Part shown: positions 11,331 through 57,875 of the stretch, piece after piece | How positions within the stretch are numbered: the stretch's first letter is position 1 | Layout: every line of letters begins with the position of its first letter | Notes under the pieces: model-generated | The model's database searches: none | Told to the model about the DNA's origin: nothing | The model's input: only the letters and a program-made list of their open reading frames with translations | Program-made: the position numbers and the translations under genes | DNA from: Brachypodium distachyon | Lineage: Eukaryota; Streptophyta; Magnoliopsida; Poales; Poaceae | NCBI RefSeq assembly: GCF_000005505.3 | Contig: NC_016132.3 | Coordinates: 7,688,001-7,752,000, forward strand | Length of the DNA: 64,000 nucleotides | Reading direction: 5' to 3'

Positions 11331-12187
11331 CTCGTGTGGCTTTAAGACTCTGACGAGAAAATACTCTGGCAGGGCAATGCTCCACTGTATGGTTTTCCGT
11401 CTCATCCAGATGCTATGCTATTTTAAATAGCGTTTTGAAAAAAAAAAATCAAATGTAGCCTAAAATTAAATGTTCAGCATAACAACGTACTAAAAAATTC
11501 TCCAATCATTTTGAAGACCAAATCCATGACATAAACAAAAGATACAAAGCATAATTGAAGCACTAGAGGTGACGACGCCGCTGGCCGCAAGATGGAGAAA
11601 AGGCGGTCTGTTGCGAATTGGAGGAAGGAGTCGTCGTCACCGCTGCCGGTCACGAGCTGTGAGGATTTGCCGCCTCCGGCCCTCATGGTGGAACCAGTTA
11701 GGTCCGAGAGACTGAGACTAGGAGATTTTGAGTATGGTCTTTAGTCCGACGTGGTACTATTTGATCAATTTTGGACGCTATAATATTTAGCGATGCTATA
11801 GCATATAGCATTTAGCATTATTTAGCATGCTAATAGCGAGAATAGTGGCATGGTGAGAAAAATTGCTTAAACGTAGCGTCGGGTGCTTAAACTTGGCGTC
11901 GGGTCTTCAGATATGCTATAGCGACGTTGTAGTGAGAAAATAAGGCGCTATTTAAAACCACGGTAAAAATGATTAATTAGGGATAGCCTTTCATCGAGAA
12001 GAAAAGAAGATCAGCTTAGGCCTTTCCAAAGGGGAGAAAAGGTTAGCGAAAGCAAAAAAAAGAGCTCCATCAAGGGCATCACCATCAACAACCACTGAAG
12101 ACATAAAAGTCAAGCTCGTCAACGCGTGAGGAAGGCAAGTAGGCAACGGGGGAAGAATCCAACCCAAAGAGGAAAAATCGCAGAGCC
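11331..12187. other. Repeat-like AT-rich DNA and F-box gene promoter
   Basis: From about 11415 to 11965 the motif TTTTAAATAGCG / CGCTATTTAAAACC appears near both ends, with several GCTATAGC and TTAGCAT repeats inside, suggesting an old inverted-repeat element of about 550 bp. The last 200 bases before 12188 should contain the F-box gene promoter and leader. Confidence 0.4.
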
Positions 12188-13958
12188 ATGGCGGCCGGAG
12201 CAGCCGACGAGGAGGAGGACCGGCTGAGCGGCCTCCCCGACGACGTCCTCCACTCCATCCTGGCCCGCCTCCCCTTCAAGCACGCCGTCCGCACCAGCGC
12301 CCTCTCCAGGCGGTGGCCGCGCCTCTGGCTTCACGCGCTCGCCGCCTCGCCCGTCCTCGACTTCACCGACCCCGACTTCGTCCGCGGTCACTCGCGAGCG
12401 CAGTTCGTCGCCACCGTCAACCGCTGCCTCAGCGCCCGCGGCGCCGCCCCTCTCCGCGCGCTCCGCGTGGCCTTCTCCCCCTTCGGCGCGTTCGAGCGCG
12501 ACGTCGTCGGCTGGATCTCGGCCGCCCTGGGGAGCGGCGCCACGGAGGTGGACGTGGATCTGAGAGCGCAGGGAAGAAGAAGAAGCGGGGGGATCGAGGC
12601 CGATGCCGAGGACGACGGCGGCGGGACGTTCCGCCGCACGGAGGTGGAGCTTCGGGGGGACCTGTTCTGTTCCCCGAGCTCGCTGTCCCGGCTCAGTCTC
12701 AGCCGGTTCAGCCTCCGCCACGTCCCGCCCGGCGCGGCGGGGCTCGCCGGCCTGACGTCGCTGTCTCTCAGCCACGTCGACGTCACCGACGACGCTCTCC
12801 GGGACGCAGTCTCCGGCTGCCCCGTTCTCGAGTTCCTGAGCCTGAGGAGCTGCGACCTCCTCTCGAATGTGAGAATCGCCGGCGGGAGGCTGCGCGGCCT
12901 GGAAGTCGTGCGCTGCCAGGTGCGGCAGCTGCAGGTGGCCGCGCCCGCGCTCGAGTCCTTCGCCTTCCACGGCGATCTCATGTACCTGAGAGAAGACGAC
13001 AGCAAGCCCCTGGAGTTCATCGGCAGCAAAGGCAACAACGTGACGCCGCCGCCGTCGGAAGCCACGCCGGAGCTGCGAGACGCGTACCTGTCCCACGTCG
13101 ACTTTAGCGGAGAAGACGAAGTCTTCGACGGGTTCGCCTACACAGAGTTCCTAAACAAGGTCGCGCATGCCAAGATCCTGACAATTTGCTCCGTGGCCTT
13201 GCTGGTACGATCCAATTCGAACGTGTTCCTATATCTCGGCTACAAAAATGAACAAAAACAAAACTATGCTAAACATGCGCCGATTGATTGTTGAATCGAT
13301 ATCTGGCAGCACATCGAAGAAGAGAGATTTTTCTCTATGCCCACCATAGACACCCCGAACCTACAAGAGCTGCAGGTGCTCATGGGCTCCCTGGGCGACG
13401 ACGACGACACGCGCTTCCCCGACTTCTTCGAGCTCGCCGCGCCGCCGCTTCTCGAGCGCCTCTTCATCCAGGTAAACATCCAGGTATCATGCACCATCCT
13501 GTAGAACTGCACACGACACGATGGCCGACTCTGACAAGCGAAATTCCCGACCGGATCAAACCGTGCAGCTCCCAGCCGATTGCGACGGCGACAGTGAAGA
13601 GGAGGACACGGACATGGTTCCCGGCCACGAGATCTCTCTTGGCCGCCTGACGTTCATCAAGGTGGCCAACTTCCGGGGGACGAGGCGCGAGCTGCGGCTG
13701 CTCAGGTTCCTCGTGGGGATGGCGCCTGCCCTGGAGCAGCTGGTGCTCGTCACGCCAGACCCAGAAGCAGAACAGGGGGGAACGACTCTGAGACACGATG
13801 ACCAAGACAAGCAACAGCTCCTTCAGATCGTCCAGGAGCAATTGTCGGAGGTTCGGAAAGCTCGGCGGGATCAGGCCCATGTCGTCGTGTGCCGGGCGAG
13901 GGACGATGGCAGCCGGAGGCCCGCGCACAGCAAGTACTACCACCATGACCGGGAATAG
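12188..13958 (+). CDS. F-box/LRR/FBD protein
   Basis: F-box proteins select targets for SCF ubiquitin ligases. Three phase-0 exons (12188-13204, 13310-13471, 13569-13958) give 522 aa. The F-box is at residues 13-47 (RLSGLPDDVLHSILARLPF, then TSALSRRWPRLW). Residues about 150-340 are leucine-rich, with LSRLSLSRFSLRHVPPG and LTSLSLSHVDVTDDAL. Exon 2 holds NLQELQVLMGSLGDDDD. Exon 3 has the FBD-like part LRFLVGMAPALEQLVLVT. Splice sites are GTACGA...GCAG and GTAAAC...GCAG. The gene is extremely GC-rich at its 5' end, as is usual for grass genes. The substrate cannot be told from sequence. The 325-aa ORF on the other strand is a GC shadow. Confidence 0.88.
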
Positions 13959-24440: not shown

Positions 24441-24575
24441 GCTAACATTAGGCTTGGGGACTATGGTGCAGCCAAGGATGACTTGCCGATCGAAACGATG
24501 CACAATATGCATCGATCGGCGAGTTGTTCTTGGCTACATCTTAGCTCCTGCCCCTCATGTTAGGCCGGCATGCGG
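24441..24575 (+). ncRNA. MIR169: microRNA precursor, miR169 family
   Basis: Bases 24469-24489 start CAGCCAAGGATG and end GACTTGCCGA, the known miR169 sequence. The opposite arm (about 24518-24538) reads GGCGAGTTGTTCTTGGCTAC, a good miR169-star with bulges, and the loop between is about 28 bases (GATCGAAACGATGC...GCATCGATC also pairs). Outer arms continue to pair (GGCTTGGGGACTATG against CATCTTAGCTCCTGCCCC). miR169 guides cleavage of NF-YA transcription factor mRNAs and acts in drought and nutrient responses (established knowledge). The mature sequence is on the 5' arm. Confidence 0.93.
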
Positions 24576-28879: not shown

Positions 28880-30460
28880 GCAACGCAAATCCAGCAACAC
28901 TAAACTCCGGCCCAGTTGAGCCAACCCAGACTTGTTCAAAACAGAAGTCACCACGCGCCACGAACGCACGGGTTCCGGCAACCGACGGAAAATCACCAGT
29001 CACCACCGCGGCGCAAACTCCTTGCATGGCCTTGGTTTGGTAGCTATTGAGATGTTTCGCTGGATGGAGATGGAGAATGTAGCACCAAATGACGTCACCT
29101 TTCTTGCAATCCTGTCAGCATGCAGCCATGTTGGATTGACTGATTTGGGTCGCTGGTATTTCAAAATAATGGTTTCTCAGTACATGGTTAAGCCACGAGT
29201 TGAACACTATGGATGCATGGTCGATCTACTTGGCCGTGCTAGTTATTTGATGGAAGCTCAGGACTTAGTTCAGGACATGCCTTTCAAGGCCAATGCAGCA
29301 ATATGGGGAGCTCTTACTGCTGCTGCTCGGACACATACTGATGCTGAGCTTGGCAAACAAGCTTTGTTGCATTTGATTGAGCTTCAGCCTCACAACAGTG
29401 GGGACTATAATCTCCTATCTAATATCTATGCAGAACAGGAGAGGTGGGATGTTGTGAGCAAACTTCGGAAGCAAATCAAAGACAGGGGCTTAAGAAATGT
29501 TCCAGGGCAAGTTCTATTATTGAATTCGATGGCATGGTTCATGAGTTCACTTCGAGAGATGGATCACATCCTGGCTTACACAAGATATGTCACGTACTAT
29601 GTGAGATCACCACTGCATGAAATCTATTAGTTTTGTTGCTTTGCTTCCTGAAGTATTGCGTGATATTCAAGAAGGGTGTGACCATTATTCACATCATAGC
29701 CCAGGTGTGCCAAGCTAAAGTTTCTGTGAAATTGGCAGCATGGTTCAGCTCACACCTACAGTGAATCCCATCCGTGCATACAGAAGATGTTGATCTTTTA
29801 TATGACATCAGTTTTTTTGAGGTAACCTGAAGTCCCACTGATTATGCCTGATACTTTACTTTGTATGGAAGGATTAAATATTCTGGTACACTCTGCAAGA
29901 AATATACTCACTCCGTTCCATAATTCTTGTCTCAAATTTGCCAAAAAATGGATGTATCTATTCCTAAAAAGTGTCTAGATATATGTAATATTTCGACAAG
30001 AATTATGGAACGAATGAATATTATATAGAGAGAGTATATATTCTACTTTATCATTTTTGATAAATTCTATATGCTATTTCTAAGATACTTCAACGCGAAC
30101 TACATGAAATTTTTGTAAGTTGGAACTTAGTTTTTATTGTGTTTGAGAAATACCTTCATATTTGTACATATAATAGAGTATATTAAAAAGCTGCATATTC
30201 TAACAAAAAAAATATATACTATGTTCTGCGTACTACATACTGCCTATAGTTTGCTACATACTACCTGATTAGTACTACATATTACATTCTCCCAATTGCG
30301 CTACATACTAACCTGATTTATGCGAAATGCACGTGGGAGTAACTATACCCGGTAGTACGAGAAAATCGTATTTATATATACTTGCATTTTGGGCCAAGCG
30401 AATATAGCTGAAAGCAAGCAAAGGAGTGTAAGAGAATAGGCAGTGGTTGTGTACAGAGGG
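28880..30460 (+). pseudogene. Partial, decayed duplicate of the PPR gene at 56.4 kb
   Basis: The start (CCAGACTTGTTCAAAACAGAAG onwards, 28926-29026) matches the leader of the PPR gene at 56270-56372. At TGCATG the copy then jumps to the sequence homologous to 57209 and runs to the 3' UTR. About 830 bp of coding sequence, covering the first ~280 codons, is therefore missing. The remaining frame (28932-29630) keeps the C-terminal PPR repeats and E motif (HYGCMVDLLGRASYLMEAQD) but shifts after LRNVPG because a G is lost, and ends early. The 3' flank is also shared, including AAGGAGTGTAAGAGAATAGG at 30421, but only after a 647-bp block (29774-30420) absent from the parent. No start codon remains in the right place. 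Confidence 0.88.
29905..30020. mobile_element. Stowaway-like MITE in duplicate's 3' flank
   Basis: TACTCACTCCGTTCCATAAT at the left, with inverted ATTATGGAACGAATGAAT at the right. It sits inside the 647-bp block specific to this copy. Confidence 0.75.
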
Positions 30461-30565: not shown

Positions 30566-33500
30566 CTACAAGAAGCGACGTCGTTTGAAGTGTCGTGTTA
30601 GTCCGGCAATCTTCCCTGCGATGGAGTGCTCACGTCCCTCACTAGGCCGCATTTGGACGTCAGCCACTGCAACAGTAGCTGTTGCCGCAGAATGCTCCAT
30701 CTGCATCGTCACGTCAACGTCTTCCACTGTCCCCACAAACAAGACCTTGGGACGTTTAGGTTGCTTGCTTGCTGCTGCTTCCAGTTCCTGTTTACTCTGG
30801 TTATCAAATTCACAGAGGTGGTGTCCGAGGTGATTGTTGGTCCTCTTGGAACCATGGATCAGTCTGGCAATCGTTCCTGCCGGGCTCTTCTGCATGACAG
30901 ATCCAACCTGCGTTTGGACGTCATCTTCAGACATGGGAGTTGGTGCTGCGCAGCTCTCTGAATTCTCGTTACTACTTCCCATCTGCATCCAATCGACATC
31001 TTCCATTGTTTGCATAAACAATACCTTGGGCTGTTTCGGGTGCTTCTTTGCTGCTTCTTTCCAATCTTGCTTTGCTCCATCGCTCACTCCATCATGGAGA
31101 GCGACCTCCTTAAGTTGTCTGAGGCACTCCATGTTTATGCCACAAAGAACCCGGCCATCTAGATCCTTGCAGAGCAGCCGGAGTGACTCGAGCCGCTGCA
31201 GAGCCCCCTTCTTGATATCTAACCCGGCCATGGATTGCACCACTATGCATAGGCCTCGCAGGCTACCCAGCACCCCATTCTCTATCTCCAAACTGCCTAA
31301 TTGATTTGCGGTAAGTTTGAGATAGTGCAAGCAGCGCACTGTACTGACAGAAGCAAGAATATCCCCGCTGAGCTGATTGTTTGGAGATGAAAGACACAGC
31401 TCAGTGAGGCCACCCAGCATGGTGACAAACGGAGGCAGGCTGCATATGCTGTTGCCATGTAGCTTCAACGAATGAAGATAGCAGGAATTTTCCAGAGAGA
31501 AATTGAGCAAGTCTTGGGGCCATTCTGTGGAGCCCAGTGATAGTGAATGGGCATCGTTCATGTTGGTGCTTCTCTCAATGAACCCTTGGATGGCGTCTGA
31601 GAGATGATTGAGGTTGCTGCTGCCATCCACAGTGGGCACCCATCTTATTTTCACCTTTGTTAGATGCTCCATATGTTGCAAGAGTTGTGCAAATATTTGG
31701 CTCTCGTCGGCAACAAACCCTTTGAGTGTCTCCAACTTGCTCTTCTCTGACAGGAAAGCCTGTAGCTTACTCACCTTCCGGCCTACATCTTCAAGCTTAA
31801 ACGCTCCAAACAGATGAATCAAAGATGTCATCTTCAGAACTTGTATGGGCAGAACCTCTATCTTCGTCCGTGTTAGGTCCAATGTCTCCAAGTATTTAAG
31901 CTTTGAGATCTCCTTGGGAAGCACTGTAATGGTTTTATTGCCTCTTAGGCTTAGATACCTGAGAAGCAACAGGTTGCATATCTCCAACAAATGCTTGTCA
32001 TCCAAGTAGTCATCGCATTCTTCTAGATCCAACACTCGCAGCAGTTCATACTTGGAGAATTCCAGGACAGATTTGTGTGCCTTCCCAAAGACAGTCAGAG
32101 ACCGGACATGAGACAAATCATTGCTTGGATTCCCCGAGTAATGGTTTAGGGAAAGCCACCTGATTTTACCATCACCGGGCGGGCGATCCTGGCCATGTAA
32201 CAACGTAACGAAGCTCTCTTGTACCGACTTGCGCAAGATGAACTCAAGCATCATACCATGGGTCTGGCACGTCTTCAGCTCTGTATTGTTGTTCACAGCA
32301 ACAGGCAGAACGATGCTCCGGTCAACAAGCTCCTTGAATCTGTCATTTGCAACACCACATTCTTCAACAAATCCTTCAGCCAACAATCGCCTTAGCAGAC
32401 TCTCTGTCCTGACCGGACGACCACCTGGAAAAATGCCCATGTATAGCAAGCAGGCCTTGAGGACATGATCAGTGAGGCTGCTATAGCTGTCAGCGAGCAC
32501 GCGATTCATCCTTGCTAATGTATCCTTTGTTTCCAGGAGCTCACCCAGATTGTTGCACAACTTTGCCCATTCTGTCCGTGTCGGATTGCCTCTGCTCTGC
32601 AAGAACTGGGCTACGGTGACAAGAGCAAGTGGCAGACCATCGCTTTTCTTTAGCGCCTCGGAACCAAGCCCCGCATCAGGCGGTGGATCATCCAGGGAAG
32701 CTTGTTTGAAGAACAACCTCCTCGAGTTTTCTTCGTCAAGAGTCCTCATCATGTACACATGACCATGAGCAAAGCTGCTGCAGGCATTTGCTATGGAGTG
32801 GACGGCCGTTGTAACAACGACTCTGCTGCTCACGCCGGAGACTGCAGGGAAGGCGTTCTTTATGATGTTCCAAAATTCTTTCCGCATGTCATCGATCACA
32901 ATGAAGAACCTAATTAAGAGGCAGATTGAGAAATGAAACATCAAAATCCTGGAATCAGAGAAGAACTACCGCTGCTCATCTGGAACAGTTAGCTAAATGT
33001 TTCTTAATGAATGCTAGTACCTCTTGGACCCAAGGCAGTCTCTGATGCTGGTGCTGAGCTTGTTAATATCGCCGCCATCAGGTACCTGCATGCCAAGTTC
33101 ATGGAGTATCTCCTTGAGAACATCCCCGGCGCCCCTCTCTGCGGCGCGAACCCAAGCCCGTGGTTCATACTGCCCGTCGCCGCTCTCATCGTAGACCTCC
33201 CTGGCAAGAAGTGTCTTCCCTAAACCACCGAACCCAACAATGGAGATCACCTTCAGTTGCTTCGGTTGGCCTTGGGTTTCCCTCATCAGCTGTAGGACCT
33301 CGTCACGGGGCACGTCCATGCCCACGAGGTCAGCTGCAATGGTGTGCGTTGTCGTTTCGCACGACGAGAAGAAGGTGCTCGACGACGCCGACAGCCCCGA
33401 GGTGCTAGATTGGCAGCCACCACCGCCGCCGCTGCCAATATAACACGCTCTCAGCTTGGACGCCTCCTCTGAGATCTTGCGGAGCTCACGGACCGCAGTG

Positions 33501-33874
33501 GCGAACTTGCTGCGGGTCGTCGCCGTCTTCACCCCATGGACAGTCTTCCGGAGCCACGACGGCGTCGACCCGTCGGGCTTGGGCGGCGGCGGCAGTCTCA
33601 CGCGGTGCGTGAAGCGGTCAACGCAGTCCTCGATGCTGTAGGCCAGGTCACGCACGAGCTGGATCCAGACCCTCTGCACATCGTCGCCGTCGCTCCGCTG
33701 GAGACCGCGACGACGGTCATGGTCCTGGATGGCGGCGGCGATCATGCGGAATTCCTTCCTGATGTACTGGATGTCGCGCTCCAGGTTCTGCCGCCGTTTG
33801 TGTTTTTCCTGAAGAAACGCGAAGAGCTTCGGCGCGATCTTAGTGAGAAAAGCGGTGGCCACCGCTGTTTCCAT
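30566..33874 (-). CDS. CC-NB-ARC-LRR immune receptor, probable executor of an NLR pair
   Basis: Two exons (33874-33021 and 32909-30566) with a 111-bp intron give 1,065 aa. Order: Rx-type coiled coil (1-150, with IEDCVDRF at 81-88 as the EDVID-like motif), NB-ARC with P-loop VGFGGLGKTLLAR (213-225), kinase-2 FFIVIDDM (286-293), GLPLA (376-380), RNBS-D-like CLLYMGIFPGG (438-448), then leucine-rich repeats (about 530-890) such as LLLRYLSLRGN and LETLDLTRTKIEVLP. The MHD position reads Q-T-H-G-M-M-L (THG at 501-503), and the RNBS-B arginine is an alanine (VVVTTAVHS). The tail (895-1065) contains two copies of a segment with KQPKVLF...EDVD and ends FKRRRFL. It faces the AP2-NLR across 1.2 kb. NLRs with an altered MHD, such as RGA4 (TYG), can signal without a trigger and need a partner to restrain them (family knowledge); that this one does so is inference. 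Confidence 0.9.
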
Positions 33875-34156
33875 CTCCGCTCCTTTGCCGGCCTCAACTT
33901 TCTTGCTCGCCTCAACTTTCTTCCTTCGTGGAATATGGTGGATTCAGAAACAGCATGAAGTATGAAGAGGACTACAAGAGGAAGCAGCAAGAGCAGAGGT
34001 GGAGGTAGCTTCCGAGTAGTAGCTATAGATGAAGCAGGAAGGCGAAGTGCTGGAAAAACGAGTGCCAGTTCTTTAACCAGATTCAATCAACACACACCGG
34101 CGTCAGACGTCGCATATGGTCCCGCTCGGCCAAGACCCACTATTTCTGTGCTGATT

Positions 34157-34273
34157 TACTTCCTCCATCCCATATCATGTGACTTAAATTTATCTAAATA
34201 TGAGTGTATCTATGTTTAAAAAACGTCTAGATACATGTAATAGAAAATCATTTAATATGTGATGGATGAAGTA
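34157..34273. mobile_element. Stowaway-like MITE between the NLR genes
   Basis: TACTTCCTCCATCCCATATC at the left, with inverted ATATGTGATGGATGAAGTA at the right; 117 bp. Confidence 0.8.
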
Positions 34274-34683
34274 CTGATAGATTTTTTTTCCTTCGTCCAG
34301 CCTGGGTGCACTTTGGAGTTTGGCCTAAGCCAATGCAGTGCATGTGTTCGCTGTGCAGTCGCCGGAGCAGCGCACAGCCGCACACGCTTGGTGGACACAC
34401 GCAGATGAAGAAGATAGCTCTGAAAGGACAGCTCGTTTTCTCTTCTTTGATCCATTTTGTTGTGCCAAGAATTGAGTATTGATGCAAAGGCATTGGTCTT
34501 CACAGGATCCAGAGAGGAACTTGCAATAGACAAAAGCAACGACACGGTATTGAAGTACTGTACTAGAATGCTCTGGCGGGGACCTGCAGTCCAGCATCAG
34601 CGCGCTTTATGTGGTACCCTAAGCAAACACCGTGTCAAAAAAAAAACACCGCGTGGGCGTGTGGCATACATTGGTTAGCAATT

Positions 34684-34804
34684 ACTCACACCAATCCATA
34701 TGATTTGCTCAAAATATTACATGTATCTAAATATTTTTTAAGATAAATACATTCATATTTGATAATTTTAAGACAATTAATATTAATATGGGAAACAGGG
34801 AGTA
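34684..34804. mobile_element. Degenerate Stowaway-like MITE between the NLR genes
   Basis: ACTCACACCAATCCATATGA at the left and AATATGGGAAACAGGGAGTA at the right, with the family interior (ATTACATGTATCTAAATA). Confidence 0.65.
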
Positions 34805-35006
34805 TATTCCTTCCAACAAATGAAAGACCAAGTAACATGCTTTGCTGAGTACCTCTACTAAAGACCGACCAACTCTGAACGTAAAGTCTTGTTCCACCCA
34901 CCCACCAGGCAGCCACCGACACCGAGAGAAGGCCAGCCAGCCAGCGGTGAGGAAGAAGCCACGCCTGCAATACTGCTACTCTGGATCCCTGAAACAAGAT
35001 CGAAGA

Positions 35007-35030
35007 ATGTACCGCTACCCAGCTAGCTAG
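35007..35030 (+). promoter_or_regulatory. Upstream ORF before AP2-NLR start
   Basis: ATG, six more codons and TAG encode MYRYPAS, ending 46 bases before the main ATG at 35077. If transcribed, it could lower translation of the receptor. The transcription start is unknown. Confidence 0.4.
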
Positions 35031-35076
35031 GAGAGAGAAGGCTGCTAGCTTGTTCGTAGTAGAGGCAGCTTCGCTC

Positions 35077-38000
35077 ATGGGCAGCTCTTCCGGCGAGGAT
35101 TCGCCGGCGGCCCGTTTTAAAGCTCCGGCAAAAGAGAAGCAGGTAGCGGTGGCAGGACGGCAGGAAGTGCCAAGTTATCACGGCGTGCGCAAGCGGCCGT
35201 CGGGAAGGTACGCAGCGGAGATCCGGAACCCGTACAAGAAAACTCCCCTAATTCCCCTCAGGCTGGGGACGTACGATACGCCTGAAGAGGCCGCGCGCGC
35301 CTACGACCGTGCCTCCTGGGAGTTCCGTGGCAAGTCGGCACGGCTCAACTTCCCTGATGAGGTCACCGCCGCGGCCGCACCAGCGACCGAGGACCTATCG
35401 GGGAAGCTACCCAATGAGCGCCGTGGCAAGTCGTCCCGGCTCAACTTCCCTGATGAGGTCACCTCCGCCGCTGCACTGGCGACCGAGCGCCGATCGGGGA
35501 AGCTAAAGCTACCCAATAAAATCGCCACGCAATGGTCCTCGTCTGATGGCGGGTCAGGGTCAGAGTCAGAGTCAGACACAGAGGCTCTCGACTTTGCCGA
35601 TGAACCGCGACTACCATCCCAAGGCAAAGGTTCGGCAGAGGAAAACTTTATCGATCTGTTGGATGGGTTCGTCTTCTTGGCACCGGCATGTGAGGTGTCA
35701 CTGTCTGAGGAGTCCTCGTTGGTTTCAACCCAAACCTTGGGTAATCCAGAGGGAACGGCAGAGATCGAGAAGGATTCTAGTTCATTTTGGGCTTACCCTC
35801 CAATCCAGAACCCAGAGAGAACTGTACTCAGGCCAAGATGGCCAACAAGGCGGCGACGAAGGCGAACAAGGTCTGCGGTGACACTGTCGTCCGAACAGTC
35901 CGCGCAGGGCAGCTATTACTTCCAGGAGACCACGGCCGCCGAGATGTTGTTAGGACTGTCAACAGTCGGGTCTCCGCGGCTTAACTTCCCTGAAGAGATA
36001 ACCACCACATTGGCACCGTCATCTGAGGGAACACTGTCGCCCAACTGGCTGCCTGACTGGCTGGCGCCGCTCAACATCCCCGTTCCAGGCGAGGAGTGCC
36101 TCGACTTCTGCACCGAGCTTGCACTGTCGTCGTGCGAGGGCGGCGGCTCGCGCTCTGACGCGCTCCAGGTCCAGGCGGCCGGCACCATGGACGTCCCTCC
36201 CCAAGGTGCCGCCTCCATCATCCAGAACAATGCTACAGAAGACTGCCCACAGCTGCCCTTGCAGCCGGGCGGGGAAGAGGAAGAGCACCACCAACAGCAG
36301 CTCTATCCGTGGCTTGTTTCTCCTCCTCCAACAAGCTCTCACTACTGTGCCGCTCTGGGCGCCATGGGATCCCTCCTAAGGAATCTCCACACAGAACTAC
36401 ACGGAAGTGGCAGCCTGCCAAAGATGGTCAAGGAAAGGATGCAACTCCTCAAAGATGATCTTGAAGAAATAGGCGCGTACCTCGAGGACCTGTCGGAGGT
36501 GGAGGACCCTCCCCTGACGGCCAAGTGCTGGATGAAAGAGGTGCGTGAGCTGACGTACGACGTCGAGGACTACATGAACAAGTCTGTGCTGCGGCAGCCT
36601 GTTGTTGTCCGCGCCACTGCCAGTGCCAAGATCAAGAGCGGCGGCAAACCCGTGGCCAAAGCCCGACATGTTAAGATCACTCGTCTCCCGAGGAGGGTCA
36701 ACCGGCCCCACAGGATCGCCGACATGCTATCAGAGTTCAGGGTGTTTGTCCGGGAGGCCATTGAACGGCACGAGAGGTATGATCTCGGTTGTCGCAGCTT
36801 GAGGCGTAGATTTGTGTCTGTCGGTCCTGTGCTTCCAATGACGTATGATGAAGCTGCCGACATAGTAATTGATGGCCGGATGAGCAAGTTTATCACCTCT
36901 CTGGCTAACGATGGGGATCAGCAGCTCAAGGTGGCATCTCTTGTTGGATCGGAATGTCTTGGTAAAACTACACTTGCCAGAGTGTTCTACGAGAAATTTG
37001 GGGCGCAATGTGATTGTCGGGCCTTCGTTCGGGTGTCCCGAAAGGCTGACATGAAGAGGGTTTTCAGGGACATTCTTTGGCAGGTCCAAAGGCAACAGCC
37101 CCCTGAAGATTGTAAGCAGCATGAACTTACTGACAGTATCAAGAAACATCTGCAAGATAAAAGGTACTACTAGTACTACCTCTACTTCTCAAAGAAAACT
37201 AGTACTACCTCTTTTATCACACAAAATTTATATACTCCCTCCGTCCAACAAAGGATGTCTCAACTTTGACTAAATTTGAATGCATCTATATAACAAGTTA
37301 TGTCTAGATACATCCAAATTTTGACAAGTTGAACGGAGGGAGTATGAATTTTGTCCAAGTATGTCCAGAAAATATTGTATTGAAGATTGCCAAAATGTAT
37401 CAAAGAATCTGATAAACATAGATCCCCTGCTCACTAACTCACTACGCTGCAGTTTGCTCTCAGACCTCTCCTTCTTTCATATTTTAGCCAATGTAGTTGT
37501 TATGGGCATTTTTGCGGAATTAGGATCAATGGCTCTGAGGAGCATATATGCTTTGTTTAGTTTGCAAAATTCAAAAGATGGGTCTAAGAAGTTTATAATT
37601 TCCCAATAAAAAACTCTCACATGTAAATACAAGAATGGGATATACATCCGCATATTTTCAAGAGAAAGTGAATTTATTTGCAATCTGCATAAAAATTACA
37701 AGAATGAAGAGCTAGAAAATCATCTGGATTGCCTAAAAAAAATCATCTGGAGTCGAAATTTCTTTGACTTTTTTCCATAGGATGAATTTTTGCAATAAAC
37801 TTAAGACCTGCGCATAATAGTCAGTCATTGTCATTTTTGGCCATATGGATTTTTTTTTTATGAGAGAGCATGTGCTCCCATGACCACATTCTGTTTTTCG
37901 CATTTTTGCCACCATAGTCATTTCAAGGGTGGTCCTCGAGTGAAACCACCAATTAGACACACAAATCTACTTGGTTCTTGCTAGTCGACAATTTACTTTA

Positions 38001-40151
38001 TGTTCATTCTCTTTATCTAAGATCTTAGAACAATATTCCTTCTAATATCTTAGTTCTGGTAAAACTCATTGTTCCTTTGTTATTTGTTCAGTGTTTTAAT
38101 TCAGTTCCTTGTGGATCTTTGTATTACCCTGAAATCTATCTAACAGGCAAAAATTATTGGCACGCAGGTATTTACTTGTTATTGACGATTTGTGGGATGC
38201 ATCAGTATGGGATATTATAAGTGATGCTTGTCCAAAGGGTAATAATCAGCGCAGCAGAATAATAACAACTACACGAAATGAAGATGTTGCATTATCATGT
38301 TGCTGTGATCTCTCCGAGTATGTATTTGAGATGAAACCTCTGGATGATTATCACTCGAGAAAGCTATTTTTTGGCAGAGTTTTTGGCTCTGAAAGTGACT
38401 GTCCTCAGCAATTTAAAGAAGTTTCAGATGAAATTGTTGGAATATGTGGTGGTTTGCCGCTGGCCATAATCAGCATTGCTAGTCTTTTAGCAAGCCAGAC
38501 TGTCATATTAATGGATCTGTTGATGCACATACGTGATTCATTAACCACCTGTCTGTGGGCAAATTCCACCTCAGAAGGAATGAGACAAGTACTAAACCTC
38601 AGCTACAATAATCTCCCTCAATATTTGAAGACATGCTTGCTCTATTTTAGTATGTATCCATTGGGCCGTACCATCTGCAAGGATGATTTGGTTAAACAAT
38701 GGGTCGCTGAAGGTTTTATCAATGCAGCAGAAGGGAAAGACATGGAGAAAGTTGCAGCAAGCTATTTTGATGAACTTGTTCAGAGAAAGTTCCTCCAACC
38801 TCTATGTATGAACCACAACAATGAGGTGCTGTCCTGCACCGTTCATGACATGCTACATGATCTTATTGCACACAAGTCTGCAGAAGAGAACTTCATTATG
38901 GTAACAGATTATCATCAAAAAAATATGGCACTTTCCGATAATGTTCATCGTCTATCTCTTCACTTTGGCGATGCAAAATATGCAAAGATACCAGAAAATA
39001 TCAGAACCTCTCAAGTTCGGTCTGTTACATTTTCTGGATTATCCAAGTGCATGCCTTCTGTTGCAGAGCTAAGGCTTGTTCGCGTTCTGAACATTGAATT
39101 ATCTGGTCATCACGGTGATGACAGGATAGACCTCACTGGGATTTCGGAACTGTTTCAGCTGACATACTTGAAGGTTGCATCTGCATGTGATGTCTGCATA
39201 GAGCTACCAAACCATATGAAAGGGTTACAATGCTTGGAAACATTGGACATGAATGCAAAAGTGAGTGCTGTTCCATTGGATATTATTCATCTTCCACGCT
39301 TGTTGCATCTCCACCTTCCTGTCGAGACAAGTGTGCAGTTTGATTGGATTGGCAGCACAGGATCCGTTAGCCCGGGGAGCCCTGGAAAGCTCATCAACCT
39401 GAGGGATATTCGCCTCACATGTTCTGTGCCGCCTTCCGACCATCTTGAGAGAAACATGGAAGCTCTGTGCTCTTTGCTCGGAGGACATGACAACCTGAAA
39501 ACTCTAGCCATGGTTCCTATTGCCACTTGTAGAAATGATTTTTTACGTGCTGACAGCGCTTCGGAAGTAACAACAATTTCCTGGGATGGATTGACGCCTC
39601 CTCTCCACCTCCAGAGATTCGAGTGGCTACCCTGCAGCTGCATACTTTCCAGGGTTCCTAAGTGGATTGGAGAACTTGGCAGCCTCTGCATTCTGAAGAT
39701 TGCCATCGAGACATTGTCGATGGATGACGTGGCTAATCTCCAAGGATTGTCTGCGCTAACTGTTGTCTCACTCTACGTCCGGGAAAGAGTTGCAGAAAGA
39801 ATCGTCTTTGGAAAGGCAGGATTCTCTGCTCTCAAGTACTTCAAGTTCAGGTGCAGTGTACCTTGGCTGAAATTTGAGGCAGATGCAATGCCCAATCTCC
39901 AGATTCTCAAGCTTGGATTTAACGCTCCGACGGTGGATCGACAAGACACTGCACATATCAGCATCGAGCGCTTGTCCGGTCTTAACGAGATCACTGTGAA
40001 AATTGGGGGTGCAGGTGCTGATTCAGAGTCCACCTTGATGGACACCGTTAGCAATCACCAAAGCAATCCTAAAATCAAGGTACAGTTAGTGGATTGGGTG
40101 TTTTACGGTGAGTATGGTAGTGATAAGGGGACAGATGAATGTCACGGATAA
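35077..40151 (+). CDS. AP2/ERF-CC-NB-ARC-LRR fusion receptor (NLR with integrated domain)
   Basis: Two exons (35077-37163 and 38168-40151) joined across a 1,004-bp intron (codon AG|G) encode 1,356 aa. Residues 34-92 are an AP2/ERF domain: [19 protein letters not shown], then [20 protein letters not shown] and GKSARLNFP. Residues 84-147 contain two copies of the domain's end, and a third LNFPEEIT copy is near 300. An acidic, Ser-rich linker follows. A coiled coil starts near 429 ([11 protein letters not shown] to [11 protein letters not shown]). NB-ARC has P-loop [13 protein letters not shown] (623-635), kinase-2 [10 protein letters not shown] (697-706), [20 protein letters not shown] and a normal MHD-type VHDMLHDL (921-928). 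Leucine-rich repeats fill the rest. The start is the first ATG in frame; the 5' extension has none. The intron position equals that of the minus-strand partner. AP2 and NLR are in one continuous exon with no stop, so the fusion is not a gene-model error. Confidence 0.9.
35179..35352 (+). other. Integrated AP2/ERF domain region
   Basis: Codons about 35-92 of the AP2-NLR. Fold residues are kept (YxGVRx[24 protein letters not shown]). Three DNA-contact positions known from the AtERF1 structure differ: the Trp of RPW is Ser (RPSG), and the Arg and Trp of ARVWLG are Pro and Arg (IPLRLG). The Trp or Phe of GKW/F is Tyr. Confidence 0.85.
37233..37344. mobile_element. Stowaway-like MITE in AP2-NLR intron
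   Basis: TACTCCCTCCGTCCAACAAA at the left, with GTTGAACGGAGGGAGTA at the right; 112 bp. Confidence 0.9.
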
Positions 40152-41025
40152 CACACCATGGATTCTGGTATGCATAGTTTGGGAATTTTCTGATGACACG
40201 CCATGGGGTTGCTTCAGATGGTGACAAAGTAGATTTTAACTATATGCACTGAAAATTGTATTGGTCTGATGGGAGTAGGTTTGAAATTGATGTTTTTAGA
40301 TGATCCATAGAACGCTTCTGGAACTTTTGGACATTTTGTCGATTGGGTGTGGAGTGATGGGGTTTATGCGTAGAGGTTTTCTATGGTACCCTTAGAGGAG
40401 GGAGTAGTATGATTCTAGTCCAACCAGGCGACCATTGAGGCTTTGTACGGCACATGGATTTTAGGGCATCTGCACATGTGGAGATGAGTCCCAGTTACAG
40501 TTAGCGCAGTACTAATACATATAAGCACCTCATCTGTACCAGCCGATGTTGCCGATGTTGCCTCGTCTTCACCTGACACTCTTCTGTAAAACATGTTATT
40601 CAGTGTTCTTATGGAGAAACGTGGTAGTACAAAATAGATGTTCACAAACATGTATTGACACCAAAGTTTTAAATAGCGGGCAAAGCCATTTCTTCTCCAG
40701 ATATAAAGGCGCTAAGCCTAAAATCATGAAAAGAAAATATAAGAAAATATCACCCAATTAAGCATCATATATCACATATAGCGAAGTGGTTGCAAATCGC
40801 TCTCCGTCAGCAGCTATTTCTTTAGGAGAGAAGAGGAACGAGCAATGGAGGCTAGGATTCTCGTGGTGATTTTCAGAGAACAAAAGAGAAAATGGTCCGG
40901 GCAAACGATTTTCTGGGCCGATACTTTTGGACTTGCGACGAAGATTTAGCACTAAATCATGTCCGGTTTCAACACTATTTGCAATTAAAAAGGGCACGAT
41001 AGACATTAAACAATATTTTAATTTT
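40152..41025. other. Intergenic, no gene seen
   Basis: The AP2-NLR 3' UTR is followed by AT-rich DNA. Near 40665 is a TTTTAAATAGCGGGC motif like that at 11415. Confidence 0.45.
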
Positions 41026-41670
41026 TCCGGAGATTGCACCGTTGGGTCATAATGAAATTTCACGTGATAGTATTAGACAAAATTTCGCACAATCTCACCG
41101 AAGGGATCGACAAAATATTTCATGAGCCAGCAAAAAACAGGCGAACAAGTCGGATGTTCGTGCTGTCCCGCACGGGCGCGAGAATTCCAAACAACACTCG
41201 GTGTTTCTAATCTTTCCGGATATTCCACCGTTGGATCGCGATGAAATTTCACATTGTAGTAGTAGACAAACTTTCGCACAATCCCACCGAAAGGATCGGC
41301 GAAACACTTCTTGAGGCATCGGGAAACATGCGAACAAGTCGGATGTTCGTGCCGTCCTGCACGGTCGCAAGAAATTCAAACAATACTAGGTATTTTGATG
41401 TTTTCTGGAGATTCCACCATTGGATCCCAATGAAATTTCACATTGTGGTAGTAGACAAAATTCCCCACAATCCCACCAAAGTGATCGTTGGAACATTGCT
41501 CGAATCAGCAGGAAACATGTGAACAACGTGTTATCACGCATGATCGCAAGAAATCCGAACAACACTCGGTATTTTGGTATTGGCCGGAGATTTCACTGTT
41601 AGATCATGATGAAATTTCACAGCGTTGTAGAAGACACAATTCCTAACATTCTTATCAGAGGGATCGTCGA
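41026..41670. repeat. Tandem array with a period of about 189 bp
   Basis: Four degenerate copies, anchored by ATGAAATTTCAC at 41052, 41241, 41430 and 41609 (steps of 189, 189 and 179). Other shared parts are CGCACAATCCCACCGAAAGG, GAACAAGTCGGATGTTCGTG and CAAACAACACTCGGT. Confidence 0.88.
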
Positions 41671-48665: not shown

Positions 48666-50290
48666 TTAGAGCTTTGGGTCGATATTCTTTTTCAGCACGA
48701 GATCTCCTTGGGAGAAGGCTCGTTCCCGCACTCTTGTGTTATAAAAGCGTGCAGTGCTTTGCTCGTAGACGGCGTGACTCATGAGGGCTTTGTCACGAGC
48801 TTCTTCCACAAGATCGATGGCCGTTTTGTGGTGCTCTTCATTTTCGATGAAGGCCATTGGAGTGGCTTCTTGGAGCCTTTCGACCCGAGGTGAGCGGAAC
48901 TCGACCTCGGCGGGAAGAACTGCTTCGGCTCCATACACCAAGGAGAATGATGTTCGGCCCGTGGAACGGCTTACGGAGGTGCGTATGCCCCAAACCACGC
49001 TAGCGAGTTCATCTCCCCATGCTCCCCTTGCTTTGCTAACCGTGTTCTCTACCCTTCGGCGGAGTCCTTGGAGAATTAGTCCATTTGCCCTTTCGCAAGC
49101 GCCGTTGCTCTTTGGGTAAACAACGGATGCGAAGTGCAGTTTGATCTCAAGACATTCGCAGAATTTGATGAATTCCGCATAGTTGAGCTGTTTGCCATTG
49201 TCCACGGTTAGCTCTCGCGGGACGCCATATCGGCATATGATATTCTCCCAAAAAAAATTTGAGTGGCTTGTGACGTGATTTTGCCGAGCGGCGCTGCTTC
49301 TATCCATTTGGAAAGGTAATCAATCGTCACCACGAGGTACTTGCAGCCCCTGTTGCACGCGGGGAAAGGCCTAAGAAGGTCCATTCCCCGGCGTGCAAAT
49401 GGCCATGTTATCGGGATATTCTTCAGGGAAGTCACGGGCGCATGGATTGACTTAGCCATTTTCTGGCAAGCTTCGCATTTCCGCAATATGGTGATTGCAT
49501 CTTGCACCATGGTGGGCCAATAGAATCCCTGTTGTAAGGTTTTTGCCGCGGTGGCTCTTGGCGCGAGATGGTGGCCGCATATTCCCGAATGGATTTCCAG
49601 GAGGAGCTCGGCCCCCCAGTCAGGAGTTATGCACTTAAGCAATGCGGCCGCCCCTTTCTTGTACAGGATGCCGTCGAGGAGGACGTACATCTTGGCTTTC
49701 GCGAGTAGAGTTTTGGCGCTTGGGCCTTCTGCTTCTTCGTCCACCTCGCCTTTCAAGGCGCGGATAATCAATGTCATCCAAGAGGGTGGAGCGTTGATGA
49801 CCATGCTGGTCTTTGAAGCTTCGTCAAGGGTGTCGGCTTCTTCCTTTATGGATGGGGTGCGAATCACTTCGAAGAATGCGCCGGGTGGCAGCGGTTCTTT
49901 GGAACCGGCCGTTCGGGCTAACCTGTCGGCCAGGTGATTTTCTCCTCGTGGAATGCGTCTCGCCTCCATGCCCAGGAAGTACCGTTCCATCTTGCGAACT
50001 TCTTCGATATATTTCTTCATCCTCTCAACAAGACATTGATATGACTTGTCCATTTGGTTTATCACCAGTTGGGACTCTCCTTGGATGAGAAGGCGTCGGA
50101 CCCCCATGGCCTTGGCCAGTCAAAGCCCGAGAAGTAGCGCCTCGTACTCCGCCATATTGTTGGTGGCGTTGAAGTCCAGGTGGGCGGCGTACTCCAAGAT
50201 TTTTCCTTCAGGGCTGATGAGTATGACTCCGGCCCCGGCGCCGTCGAGGCGCTTGGAGCCATCGAACCTCATTATCCAATGTGGTTCGAG
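48666..50290 (-). pseudogene. Gypsy archaeal-type RNase H and integrase
   Basis: RNase H begins FDGSKRLDGAGAGVILISPEG and has NNMAEYEALLLGL, followed by an in-frame TGA (50118-50120, a likely CGA to TGA change) before LAKAMGVRRLLIQGES. The integrase follows: a zinc finger with H-x3-4-H and CEAC, then the core with the first Asp in MDLLRPFP, the second in LTVDNGKQ and the Glu in SNGACERANG. The core changes frame near 49240 at a run of As (TTTTTTT on minus). RNase H removes genomic RNA and integrase inserts the cDNA. This copy is inactive. Confidence 0.85.
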
Positions 50291-52074
50291 GGGCTCGGTT
50301 TTGGACGCGACTTCTTCGGGCGGGGCTAGTGGAGCATGCCACTCGGCCACAAAGTCAGCCATGACTTGGGATTTTATGGCCGTTCTCGCCATGAGTTCTA
50401 GCGAGAAAGGGGCCAATTCCGTTGCCCATTTGGTGATTCTTTCGGTGGCTTCCTTATTGCCGAAGACTTCCTTGAGTGGGAAGGTGGTTGGCACCATGAT
50501 GGTGTGGCCCATGAAGTAATGACGGAGTTTTCGAGAGGCCATGAGGAGGGCGTCAGCGATCTTCTCGATCTAGGTGTATCGACACTTTGCTCCTCCAAGG
50601 CTTCGCTCACGTAATATACCGGGCGTTGTGACCCGTCTTCCTACTTCACGAGTGCGGCGTTCACGGCGACCGGGGTTGCGGCAAGGTACAGGAGCAAGGG
50701 CTCCCCCTGCTTTGGGCCCGTGAGAAGCGGAGGGGTCGACAAATAGGTCTTGAGTTCTTCGAAGGCCCTTTGAGCTTCGTCGGTCCACTCAAAGTTGTCG
50801 AGGCTTCTCAAGGCTTTGAAAAAAGGAAGACCCTTCTTGGTTGATCGGGCGACGAATCGTCCCAAGGCCGCCATTCTTCCCGCTAGGCGCTGCACATCTT
50901 TGACGGAGCGAGGAGGCTCCATTTCCATGATGGCCCAGATTTTCTCCGGGTTAGCCTCGATCCCTCGTTGAGAGACGAGGAAGCCCAGGAGTTTTCCTCC
51001 TTGAACTCCGAATGCGCACTTCTCCGGATTGAGCTTTATGCCATACTTGCGGAGATTGTCGAAGGTTTCCTGCAGGTCCTTGGGATGAGTTCCTGCAATT
51101 TGACTTTTGATGACGGCGTCATCCACGTATACTTCGGCGTTTCTCCCCAATTGTTCTTTGAGGATGAGGCTGACGAGGCGTTGGAAGGTCGCGCTGGCGT
51201 TCCTCAATCCAAAGGGCATTCTGCGATAGTAGAAGGTGCCGACAGGAGTGATGAAGCTGGTCTTTTCCTCGTCTTCCTTGGCCATGTGGACTTGGTGGTA
51301 TCCCGAATAGGCGTCCAAGAAGCTCAACCTCTCGCATCCCGCCGTGGAGTCGACCAGTTGGTCGATCCGAGGGAGCGGGTAGTCGTCCTTGGGGCATGCC
51401 TTGTTCAGGTCGGTGAAGTCGACACACATTCGCCACTTGCCGTTGGCCTTTTTCACCAAGACAGGATTGGCTAGCCACTCGGGATGCCAAACTTCTCGGA
51501 TAAGCCCGACGTCGGAGAGTTTAGCGATTTCTTGTTTGATGACTTCGCTTCGCTCGGTGGAGAGTTTTCGAAGCTTCTGCTTCACGGGAGCTTTGCCGGG
51601 TCTCACGGCGAGGCGATGTTCCATGACGTCACGCGGGACTCCTCCCATGTCGGAAGGTGACCAAGCGAAAAGGTCGGAATTCTTCCGGAGCAGGCCGACA
51701 AGTTCGTCCTCGAGTTTACTCGGGAGGTCGGCTCCAATCTTCACCGTGCGCATGGCGTCATCTTGGGAGATGCGTACTTCCTTGAGTTCTCCCTCGGGGA
51801 GAGGCTTGGGGATGTAGCGCTCCTGAGAATTGGTTTCGGATGCTCCCGTGCTCGAAAGCAAGTTAATACTCTTGGATGATTCTCCCTTTTCGGCGCACTT
51901 GGTCTCGTGGCGGTAAAGTGTCTTCCTGTCGGAAGATTGCTCGCCGCGGACCGTTATCACGCCCTTCGGCCCTAGGATCTTCATGCACAAGAAATTGTGG
52001 TGGATGGCGGCACAAAGACGGTTTAGCATCGTCCTCCCGAGGATGGCGTTGAAGGAGGCCTCCATATCCACCAC
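50291..52074 (-). pseudogene. Gypsy reverse transcriptase and first RNase H
   Basis: The long frame 50641-52074 holds the RT: CVDFTDLNKACPKDDYPLP, SFLDAYSGYHQVHMA, RRMPFGLRNASATFQR and the catalytic YVDDAVIKS, then LLGFLVSQRGIEANPEKI. The protease end (MVDMEASFNAILGRTMLN) is at the start. A TAG after VNAALVK interrupts the first RNase H (EDGSQRPVYYVSEALEE), which then shifts frame to MASRKLRHYFMGHTIMV. RT copies the RNA genome in virus-like particles. Confidence 0.9.
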
Positions 52075-52197
52075 GTCGAAGCGTACGAGCTCGGTTCGAT
52101 GATTTGCGGCGTTTCCGAAGGTCGTGAGGAGCTCAATTTGTCCGAGCGGCTAAATGGACTTTCCTGGTACGAAACCTGTGAGGAGATAAAGGGATGG

Positions 52198-55217: not shown

Positions 55218-56269
55218 CATGTGTCTTATATTAGAGAGATGATCAAGAGAAAAGATATTACTACTCGTGTCAGGCACAGACCTTTTTGGTTGTGATCACG
55301 TGATAACCTTTTCTTTTCCTTTGCGGCTCTTTCTCCTCTTTGTGTTATCACACCACAGACCTATTTTATTTCTCACTTTTCTCTCTCGTATATTTTGTTT
55401 CTTTTGTAGATGAAATTTTGAGAGACACTTGTTTCTTTTGTATTAATTTTACTCGTGGGTACATATTACACTGCGTCAGGTGCATGTACACCAAACAATG
55501 CTAAATAAACAAATTTATTTAGTAAAAATTCTACGAGATTCATTGTCGTGTATGATAATAAAAATCAATGATTGTTATCTAAAATTTAGACATGCGGTAG
55601 ATGTTAGATGTACACGAAAACACATCAAAATTAGTACATCACGACTTATGATAACTAAAACTAGTACATCATGCCAGTACCAAGTACCTCGCCGGTTGTA
55701 ATTACATCAACTATTCATTGTTTATTTAAAATTAGACAATAATGCATATGTTAAATTTACACGAAAGCACATCAAATTGAGTACAACATGATCCATGGTA
55801 ATGAAAGTTAGTGGAACATCATCTGCAAATAATTAAAGTTGCCATCGGTACGAAATCAGTGCAAAATTACAGCTACAAATTAGTGCAAATTAGTCATGGG
55901 CGCATCTTGGTCAGGCGGTGGGTGCCGGACGAAGAAGAAGACAGAGGTGGCGTCTTGATGCCGTAGATGTCGAGCGCCGTCGGGGAGCAGAACTTGAGGC
56001 CGGGGCCGAGGGTGGAGATGCTCAGCCGCGGCGGCAGAGTAGAAGGTCGTCGACGGGCCGACGGCGCCACACCGGCGGCGGCCTCGTGCCTGAGCGCGTG
56101 CACGGCCGCAGCAGGCTGCACCTGCAGGTCTTGCGCCTGGCCAATCGCTCATCCGTGGTAGAGGATTAAGAAAATAGAGTGGGCATGCAATTAAATACGG
56201 TGTGTGGATCCGTGGAAGGAACTACTCCCCAACCGCGACCCAATCTTGCTTGTTTTTTTTTTCGAGGGC
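55218..56269. other. Intergenic and PPR promoter side
   Basis: AT-rich DNA up to about 55880, with a repeated motif (ACACGAAAGCACATCAAA / ACACGAAAACACATCAAA). From 55900 to 56160 a GC-rich block is open on the minus strand (LSISTLGPGLKFCSPTALDI), which could be a gene fragment, but I cannot identify it. Confidence 0.4.
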
Positions 56270-56372
56270 GACCCAAGCTTGTTCAAACACAGAAGTAGCC
56301 CGCGCCACGAATCCAGCAAGTCCTCCAACCGTCGGACAATCACCGGTCACCGCCGCTGCGCAAGCTCCCTGC

Positions 56373-57875
56373 ATGCCGCCGCCGCCTCTGCCGCAGGCGC
56401 TCCACCACGCCTTCTCCTTTCTCACCCGCCTCGACTCCCCGCGGCACCTCCTGCAGACCCACGCCTACCTCCTCCCCCGGGGCGGGCACCGCAACGCGCG
56501 CCTCCTCTCCGCGCTCCTCCTCGCCTCGCTCCGCCTCCCGCTCCGCCCCCACGCCCTCGCGCTCCTCCGCCGCATCCACCCTTCCTTATCCCTCAACGCC
56601 GCCGCCAAAATCCCCCACCTGCGCGGCACCCTCGGCCCGCAGCTCCACTCCGTCATCGTCCGTGCCGGGCTTGCCTCCGACGCGCACGTATCGGCCAGCC
56701 TCATCCAGACGTACTTCTCCTGCGGCCGCGTCGCCTCCGCTCGCAGCGTGTTCGATCAGACGACCGACAAGGACATCTTTTGCTGGAATGTCATGATCTC
56801 GGGGTATGTGAAGTCTGGGAACTTGGCTTGCGCGCGCGAGCTGTTCGATGTTATGCCGGCAAGGAATGTGGTGTCGTGGACGACTGTGATTGGGGCATAT
56901 GCGCAGATGAAACAGCCAGTGGAGGCAGTCGAGGTCTTCCGGAGGATGCAGGTGGAGGAAGGGATCGAGCCGGATGGGGTGGCGTTGCTGTCGGTGTTGT
57001 CAGCTTGTGGGGATCTTGGCGCGGTTGATTTGGGGGAATGGGTGCACAGGTTCGTGGTGAGGCGGGGGTTATGCTGGCAGATACCACTGATGAATGCAAT
57101 CATTGACATGTATGTTAAATTGGGGTGTGTTAGGAAGGCAGTGGAGGTGTTTGAGGGTATGGATCAGAAGAGCGTTGTGACTTGGACGACGGTGATCGCT
57201 GGGTTTGCGTTGCATGGCCTTGGTTTGGAAGCTATTGAAATGTTTCGCCGGATGGAGATGGAGAATGTGGCACCAAATGACGTCACCTTTCTTGCAATCC
57301 TGTCAGCATGTAGCCATGTTGGATTGACTGATTTGGGTCGCTGGTATTTCAAAATAATGGTTTCTCAGTACAGGATTAAGCAACGAGTTGAACACTATGG
57401 ATGCATGGTTGATCTACTTGGCCGTGCTGGTTATTTGATGGAAGCTCAAGACTTGGTTCAGGACATGCCTTTCAAGGCAAATGCGGCAATATGGGGAGCT
57501 CTTCTTGCTGCTGCTCGGACACATGGTGATGCTGAGCTTGGAAAACAAGCTTTGTTGCATTTGATTGAGCTTGAGCCTCACAACAGTGGGAACTATATTC
57601 TTCTATCTAATATTTATGCAGAACAGGAGAGGTGGGATGATGTGAGCAAACTTCGAAAGCAAATGAAAGACAGGGGCCTAAGAAATGTACCGGGGGCAAG
57701 TTCTATTGAAGTCGATGGCATGGTTCATGAGTTCACTTCGAGAGATGGATCACATCCTTGCTTACACAAGATATGTAAAGTACTATGTGAGATCACCACT
57801 GACATGAAATCCATTAGTTTTGTTGCTTTGCTCCCTGAAGCATTGCATGATATTGAAGAAGGGCAAGATCATTAA
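56373..57875 (+). CDS. Pentatricopeptide repeat protein, PLS class, E-type
   Basis: Intronless, 500 aa. PPR proteins bind organelle RNA, and E-class members take part in C-to-U editing or other RNA processing in mitochondria or plastids (family knowledge). Repeats are visible from residue about 90: SASLIQTYFSCGRVASARSV, CWNVMISGYVKSGNLACARE, SWTTVIGAYAQMKQPVEAVE, NAIIDMYVKLGCVRKAVEVF, TWTTVIAGFALHGLGLEAIE and HYGCMVDLLGRAGYLMEAQD. The E motif follows (AAIWGALLAAARTHGDAELG to NIYAEQERWDDVSKLRKQM) with an E+-like VPGASSIEVDG. There is no DYW domain, so it would need a partner for deamination. The ATG at 56373 fits the family start; the frame is open upstream without an ATG. The Arg/Pro-rich N-terminus could be an organelle transit peptide. 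A damaged copy is at 28.9 kb. Confidence 0.9.
   Translation: MPPPPLPQALHHAFSFLTRLDSPRHLLQTHAYLLPRGGHRNARLLSALLLASLRLPLRPHALALLRRIHPSLSLNAAAKIPHLRGTLGPQLHSVIVRAGLASDAHVSASLIQTYFSCGRVASARSVFDQTTDKDIFCWNVMISGYVKSGNLACARELFDVMPARNVVSWTTVIGAYAQMKQPVEAVEVFRRMQVEEGIEPDGVALLSVLSACGDLGAVDLGEWVHRFVVRRGLCWQIPLMNAIIDMYVKLGCVRKAVEVFEGMDQKSVVTWTTVIAGFALHGLGLEAIEMFRRMEMENVAPNDVTFLAILSACSHVGLTDLGRWYFKIMVSQYRIKQRVEHYGCMVDLLGRAGYLMEAQDLVQDMPFKANAAIWGALLAAARTHGDAELGKQALLHLIELEPHNSGNYILLSNIYAEQERWDDVSKLRKQMKDRGLRNVPGASSIEVDGMVHEFTSRDGSHPCLHKICKVLCEITTDMKSISFVALLPEALHDIEEGQDH

Follow-up and report, generated by a model that had tools for sequence, protein, structure and literature searches.

The closest described counterparts of the locus reported here are the rice RGA5/RGA4 (Pia/CO39) and the MIC1/C7 receptor pairs, in which two coiled-coil nucleotide-binding leucine-rich repeat (CC-NLR) genes lie head to head and one member carries an extra domain, in RGA5 an HMA (RATX1) domain at the C terminus. 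In the RGA5/RGA4 pair the helper is suppressed by the sensor, the RGA4 MHD-like motif is TYG with a glycine required for RGA4 autoactivity, and the corresponding RGA5 motif is LHH, as described in two reports (PMC4246468, PMC7491719). The head-to-head pairing of MIC1 NLRs with clade C7 is given in Bailey 2018 (PMC5819176), and Pik-1/Pik-2 and RRS1/RPS4 are further paired receptors with one domain-bearing member, the latter TIR-type (PMC7491719). A comparable locus lies within a 64-kb stretch of genomic DNA (contig NC_016132.3, positions 7,688,001 to 7,752,000; hereafter the window), where two CC-type receptor genes, A and B, diverge from a short intergenic stretch and A alone carries an AP2/ERF domain, placed at its N terminus unlike the C-terminal HMA of RGA5. 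Judged from sequence, the assignment of A and B to an RGA5/RGA4-type pair is well supported; the fuller proposal, in which A would be an AP2-baited sensor repressing B, and B an executor freed by a pathogen effector, appears rather likely.

Gene A (35077..40151, + strand; exons 35077-37163 and 38168-40151) encodes a putative sensor of 1356 aa with the order AP2-CC-NB-ARC-winged helix (WH)-LRR, in which Pfam places the coiled coil (Rx_N) at 36361..36579, the NB-ARC domain at 36877..38612, split by an intron at 37164-38167, and the leucine-rich repeats (LRR_14) at 39012..40073. Gene B (30566..33874, - strand; exons 33874-33021 and 32909-30566) encodes an executor-like CC-NB-ARC-LRR protein of 1065 aa, with Rx_N at 33593..33847, NB-ARC at 32495..33262, split by a 111-bp intron at 33020-32910, and LRR_14 at 31025..32110. 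The AP2 domain, Rx_N and the first half of the A NB-ARC domain lie in a single stop-free frame of 726 codons (34993-37173, +), with the second NB-ARC half, WH and LRR in a frame at 38133-40151 (+), while the minus-strand frames hold Rx_N and NB-ARC (33943-33014) and NB-ARC to LRR (32965-30566). Splicing at GT..AG sites restores the full frames in both genes, removing 1004 bp from A and 111 bp from B, and the intron position is common to the two, splitting the same AGG codon directly before (Y/F)..VIDD at kinase-2. The P-loops of A and B are intact, and no further AP2 or NLR stretches were found in the window by tblastn (E 1e-3). The genes lie on opposite strands with 1202 bp from ATG to ATG (33875..35076 in the splice models), well inside the 15 kb (<15 kb) taken to define a head-to-head arrangement; this stretch is a possible shared promoter, in which [AG]CCGAC occurs twice on the + strand and no W-box (TTGAC[CT]) or GCCGCC box was found. 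The divergence of two CC-NB-ARC-LRR genes across 1.2 kb and their shared intron, both proposed in an earlier sequence-only reading of the window, are therefore borne out by the domain searches and splice models. An element at 37235-37345 inside the A intron has CTCCCTCCGT-type ends, read by eye, and is presumably a Stowaway-type miniature inverted-repeat transposable element; just 3' of A is a tandem repeat (41014-41641) with a 189-bp unit in 3.4 copies, as identified by TRF.

The restriction of the AP2 domain to one member also held, as only NLR-type families scored above the Pfam cut-off in B, leaving A as the sole bearer. In A the coiled coil is preceded by a 426-aa N-terminal extension, and AP2 and coiled coil share one exon; upstream of the A ATG the closest in-frame stop is at 34990, with no further in-frame ATG between. 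A protein search identified a match, P0002 (1356 aa), that is identical to A except for N91S (1/1356 residues) and is encoded on a contig of 4686 nt, whose label 'lgn' we take to denote assembled public reads. Since unspliced A spans 5075 bp (coding sequence 4071) and its frame runs into a stop at the intron start, this shorter contig is most simply read as a spliced transcript, with AP2 and NLR in one transcript; alternatively, the contig is genomic and has an intron about 390 bp shorter than that of A. The corresponding match to B, P0122, agrees at 1062/1065 residues and is weaker evidence of a transcript, as its contig of 3708 nt could contain unspliced B (3309 bp). The frame, the splice model and P0002 place the extra domain within a single translated product, as expected of an integrated domain. 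The sequence-only reading had named transcripts in which the AP2 and NLR parts are never joined as the outcome that would count against it; this was addressed in part, and P0002 holds both.

Placement of the two NB-ARC domains was examined using the best 120 cluster representatives listed for each gene (for A, the best 120 of 369 matches). NB-ARC regions were cut from 238/240 of these proteins, the near-copies P0002 and P0122 being left out, and 207 proteins with >=85% coverage gave 225 regions, including A and B, for a FastTree phylogeny. A second tree of 52 rows comprised A, B and 50 regions from 54 hand-labelled proteins, without P0006 and P0214 (no passing region), P0008 and P0013, and with one of two regions dropped from each of P0004 and P0007. 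In the 52-row tree, 31 rows fall on the A side and 21 on the B side, each with support of 100/100, and the rows that NCBI names after RGA5 or RGA4 follow the split: 7/7 named RGA5 or RGA5-like group with A and 7/7 named RGA4-like with B. In both trees the nearest rows to A are P0003 and BRADI_4g12895, and the nearest to B is BRADI_4g12893; named B. distachyon relatives among the listed matches share 77-84% identity with A and 78% with B. The trees were built on these relatives, with rice RGA5/RGA4, the published MIC1 set, Pik and RRS1/RPS4 absent, and the assignment of A to the RGA5 clade and B to the RGA4 clade is judged by the NCBI names of the sequences that surround them.

Neighbouring of A-side and B-side genes, judged by locus tag, recurs in other grasses. 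Locus tags were compared for 37/41 tagged A-side proteins, counting repeat tags (P0108, P0116) once and leaving out P0014 and P0030, whose assemblies have no B-side row. A B-side protein lies one tag away from 13/37 of these, within two tags (<=2) of 15/37 and within three (<=3) of at least 17/37, one of the 17 having the same B-side partner as another; the neighbouring tags include BRADI_4g12895/4g12893. Because the comparison covers the best 120 cluster representatives of each search, 17/37 is a lower bound. The second outcome named as adverse, NB-ARC domains outside known paired clades with no conserved pairing in relatives, is likewise not what these comparisons, as far as they reach, show.

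The MHD-like motifs assign candidate roles to the two proteins. The B motif is THG (32255..32263, -), which shares with the TYG of RGA4 a glycine at the third place, while the A motif is VHD (38841..38849, +), compared with LHH in RGA5 (PMC4246468, PMC7491719). In the B-side group the motif is THG in 90 proteins and TYG in 14, with glycine third in 110 of the 117 locatable among 120 listed, whereas in the A-side group aspartate is third in 65/112 locatable (120 listed) and glycine in 4/112; these counts include the near-copies P0002 and P0122 and come from relatives, so that they are not independent. As read from the sequence, B has the executor hallmark, a glycine-type MHD variant, and A is without it; the THG of B is near the TYG of autoactive RGA4. 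Together with the NB-ARC tree and the locus tags, this supports the proposed sensor/executor division as one of RGA5/RGA4 type. Separately, a cap-like C-terminal segment (..PK.PKVLF..) occurs twice in B (30566-31090, -), a doubling that a simple pattern found in 3/120 listed B-side proteins, P0122, the B. distachyon counterpart P0123 and P0221.

The AP2/ERF domain of A spans approximately residues 32-95 (35170..35361, +, from Pfam at 35170-35322, alignments and the structural model). Searches against solved ERF domains with phmmer gave ERF096 (4.1e-16) and AtERF1 (7.8e-14), and an AlphaFold model of 116 residues predicted the three strands and helix of the AP2 core, with AtERF1 (1gcc) as the best PDB match (54% identity; TM 0.80 by target, 0.46 by query). 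The core fold is thus predicted to be retained, though less confidently where a loop is altered. The Pfam, phmmer and predicted-fold support, together with P0002, speaks against an annotation or frame artefact.

A search with A residues 1-201 returned AP2/ERF proteins from many plants, and the best 120 of 3447 matches, among which ERF4, ERF8 and ERF11 are frequent names, were used for comparison, the domain being located in 120/120. In AtERF1 numbering, A has H at 147, where 116/120 have R; S at 154, where 113/120 have W and 2/120 S; P at 170, where 117/120 have R and 1/120 P; and R at 172, where 115/120 have W. We take R147, W154 and R162 to be DNA-contact residues. Arg150, Arg152, Arg170 and Trp172 are described as such in PMC3602543. 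The free ERF P0260, which ranks second of 121 in similarity to the A domain, one point below P0248, carries S154 and P170 as A does and has the same TP-type loop, and TaERF4-type monocot ERFs naturally have Pro at the 170 place and bind GCCGAC, not GCCGCC (PMC3602543). These two residues were therefore probably carried in by the donor ERF, and a scenario in which R147, W154, R170 and W172 all changed after capture was rejected. The only changes without counterpart in P0260 are R147H, W172R and a 3-residue insert at the W172 loop. The C-terminal end of the domain bears an in-frame tandem duplication of 96 bp (32 codons) in 1.9 copies (35325..35505, +; TRF), and a third stretch resembling this repeat occurs at A residue 298.

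The sequence-only reading considered an AP2 domain ahead of the coiled coil unusual, a view that stands insofar as the place is uncommon and falls insofar as precedents exist. In the wheat 2DL AP2b-NLR, AP2 displaced MYB as the N-terminal fusion, and AP2 appears in Table 2 among the MIC1 domains of B. distachyon (Bailey 2018, PMC5819176); wheat MYB and BED domains are described as mostly N-terminal in PMC7422411. The B. distachyon AP2 listed by Bailey may belong to the same lineage as A. Among our matches, Aegilops geniculata P0032 (ACQJBY_018414) has AP2 ahead of a CC-NLR at the N terminus, as do the wheat AP2b-NLR and A, and its tag adjoins the RGA4-side gene ACQJBY_018415. Festuca P0027, two tags from an RGA4-side gene, and Ae. 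tauschii P0036 similarly place a transcription-factor DNA-binding domain at the N terminus of an RGA5-side NLR, MYB rather than the AP2 of A. P0036 has additions at both ends, with C-terminal BTB/ankyrin/NPR1 domains of NPR1 type besides the N-terminal MYB.

The capture in A is probably independent of these other N-terminal AP2/MYB fusions. A single NB-ARC clade uniting A, P0003 and BRADI_4g12895 with P0032, P0027 and P0036 was rejected by the approximately unbiased (AU) test (p 4e-6), the tested group having been defined by N-terminal domains after inspection of the FastTree phylogeny, and the P0032 AP2 domain ranks 110th of 121 by similarity to that of A. The P0032 domain is presumably DREB-type and that of A ERF-type. 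With P0032 as a stand-in for AP2b-NLR, neither NB-ARC clade nor AP2 similarity indicated the same fusion event as in A. Independent capture could be mimicked by gene conversion in NB-ARC, or by an ancient N-terminal fusion later exchanged or lost along many lineages. A/B adds a new, probably independent case of an already published arrangement.

The extent of the addition also differs from that of most relatives. A GAM motif precedes the first P-loop in 71/120 listed A-side proteins, with a median start at residue 59; in A it starts at 427, a position exceeded only in P0017 (525). At the other end, at least 100 residues follow the NHxxNP cap in 70/90 A-side proteins with a recognisable cap, whereas A has 26 aa behind its cap-like NHxxNP segment. 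Judged by length, A thus leaves vacant the C-terminal slot that many members of this group fill, and its integrated domain is N-terminal. In RGA5/RGA4-type pairs a CID motif is expected immediately before the integrated domain. A tentative extension, which we hold somewhat doubtful, is that RGA5-type sensors have, besides the familiar C-terminal slot, an N-terminal one that repeatedly and independently took up MYB, DREB-type AP2 and ERF-type AP2, and that a captured domain would cap the first coiled-coil helix, block formation of a pore by the sensor and force reliance on a glycine-MHD partner, the bait thereby serving as a safety catch.

In the mechanism we favour, the THG at the MHD place would make B, whose coiled coil has no added domain in front, prone to fire, and A, whose own coiled coil lies behind a 426-residue extension beginning with the ERF-type AP2, would keep it in check. 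A pathogen molecule touching the AP2 domain as it would touch a genuine ERF would free B and lead to cell death. We infer the repression of B by A, the binding of an effector to AP2 and the trigger, and a role for AP2 as bait for ERF-aimed effectors is plausible.

Several observations weigh against the proposal. The AP2 score of 34.0 bits is only just above the Pfam cut-off of 33.3, and confidence in the model is modest (mean pLDDT 62.2, pTM 0.45; 43/116 residues below 50), with 10-residue blocks of 62-85 in the domain and a minimum at the altered loop. The frame of P0003, the closest relative of A, begins inside the linker, keeping part of it with AP2 outside, and the annotated B. distachyon counterpart of A (labelled partial) has the coiled coil at its start and lacks AP2; the domain may have been lost, be dispensable or have been left out of these models, and in P0003 the contig may have truncated it. 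As the two sides were gathered by separate searches, the A/B tree split arises partly by construction, leaving the NCBI names and the neighbouring tags as the independent part of the clade evidence, and 20/37 tagged A-side proteins have no listed B-side neighbour, while tags give neighbourhood and no orientation. Finally, because R150, R152 and R162 are kept in the alignment, the A domain may retain residual DNA binding.

This last point also serves the strongest rival, in which AP2 is an output domain that tethers A to ERF target promoters, in the active state or at rest, for direct transcriptional action. The predicted fold is largely kept, a run of six arginines at A residue 258 may be a nuclear signal, and the TP-type loop also occurs in the free ERF P0260; members of the TaERF4 subfamily with Pro bind GCCGAC (PMC3602543). 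Against this, two residues kept in nearly all listed AP2 domains, R147 (116/120) and W172 (115/120), are changed, the W172 loop has its 3-residue insert, and three EAR-like patterns were not found in A residues 1-430; we consider an output role unlikely. Somewhat less likely again is that AP2 has no role and is merely decaying after being carried along in a chance fusion, and that the pair recognises pathogens by LRR alone. The marginal Pfam score, the in-frame duplication and insert, and the lack of AP2 in both the gene model of B. distachyon and the P0003 frame would fit such decay, which must be set against a frame kept stop-free over AP2 and linker for 726 codons, the near-identical P0002, and the N-terminal transcription-factor domains of the related sensors P0032, P0027 and P0036. 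That two adjacent genes, one AP2 and one NLR, have been mistaken for a single gene is hardly credible and was rejected, as one unbroken exon runs from AP2 to past the P-loop and P0002, differing at 1/1356 residues, has both parts on a single contig.

Elsewhere in the window, a MIR169_2 microRNA precursor at 24458-24549 (+; 61.7 bits) is the sole Rfam match at the gathering score. Retroelement pieces at 48669-52149 (-) include reverse transcriptase, RNase H-like and integrase zinc-binding domains, with a weak integrase core below cut-off, and another reverse-transcriptase piece lies at 1807-2868 (-). A pentatricopeptide repeat (PPR) fragment with an E motif (28920-29627, +), a longer PPR frame with an E motif (56178-57872, +) and an F-box/LRR reading frame of the FBD-associated type (12143-13291, +) were also identified.

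No functional study of an AP2-NLR receptor was found among the titles and abstract openings of the papers listed by literature searches, and a separate search for papers naming any of four B. distachyon locus tags (one of them guessed) gave no match. When paired receptors independently capture one kind of host protein, each case hints that pathogens attack it, and an ERF-type N-terminal capture that is apparently unrelated to the one in Aegilops points to effectors having targeted ERF/DREB factors repeatedly in grasses. A/B offers a natural pair for asking whether an N-terminal bait can work and, being compact and having a counterpart in B. distachyon, a model grass, is practical to test.

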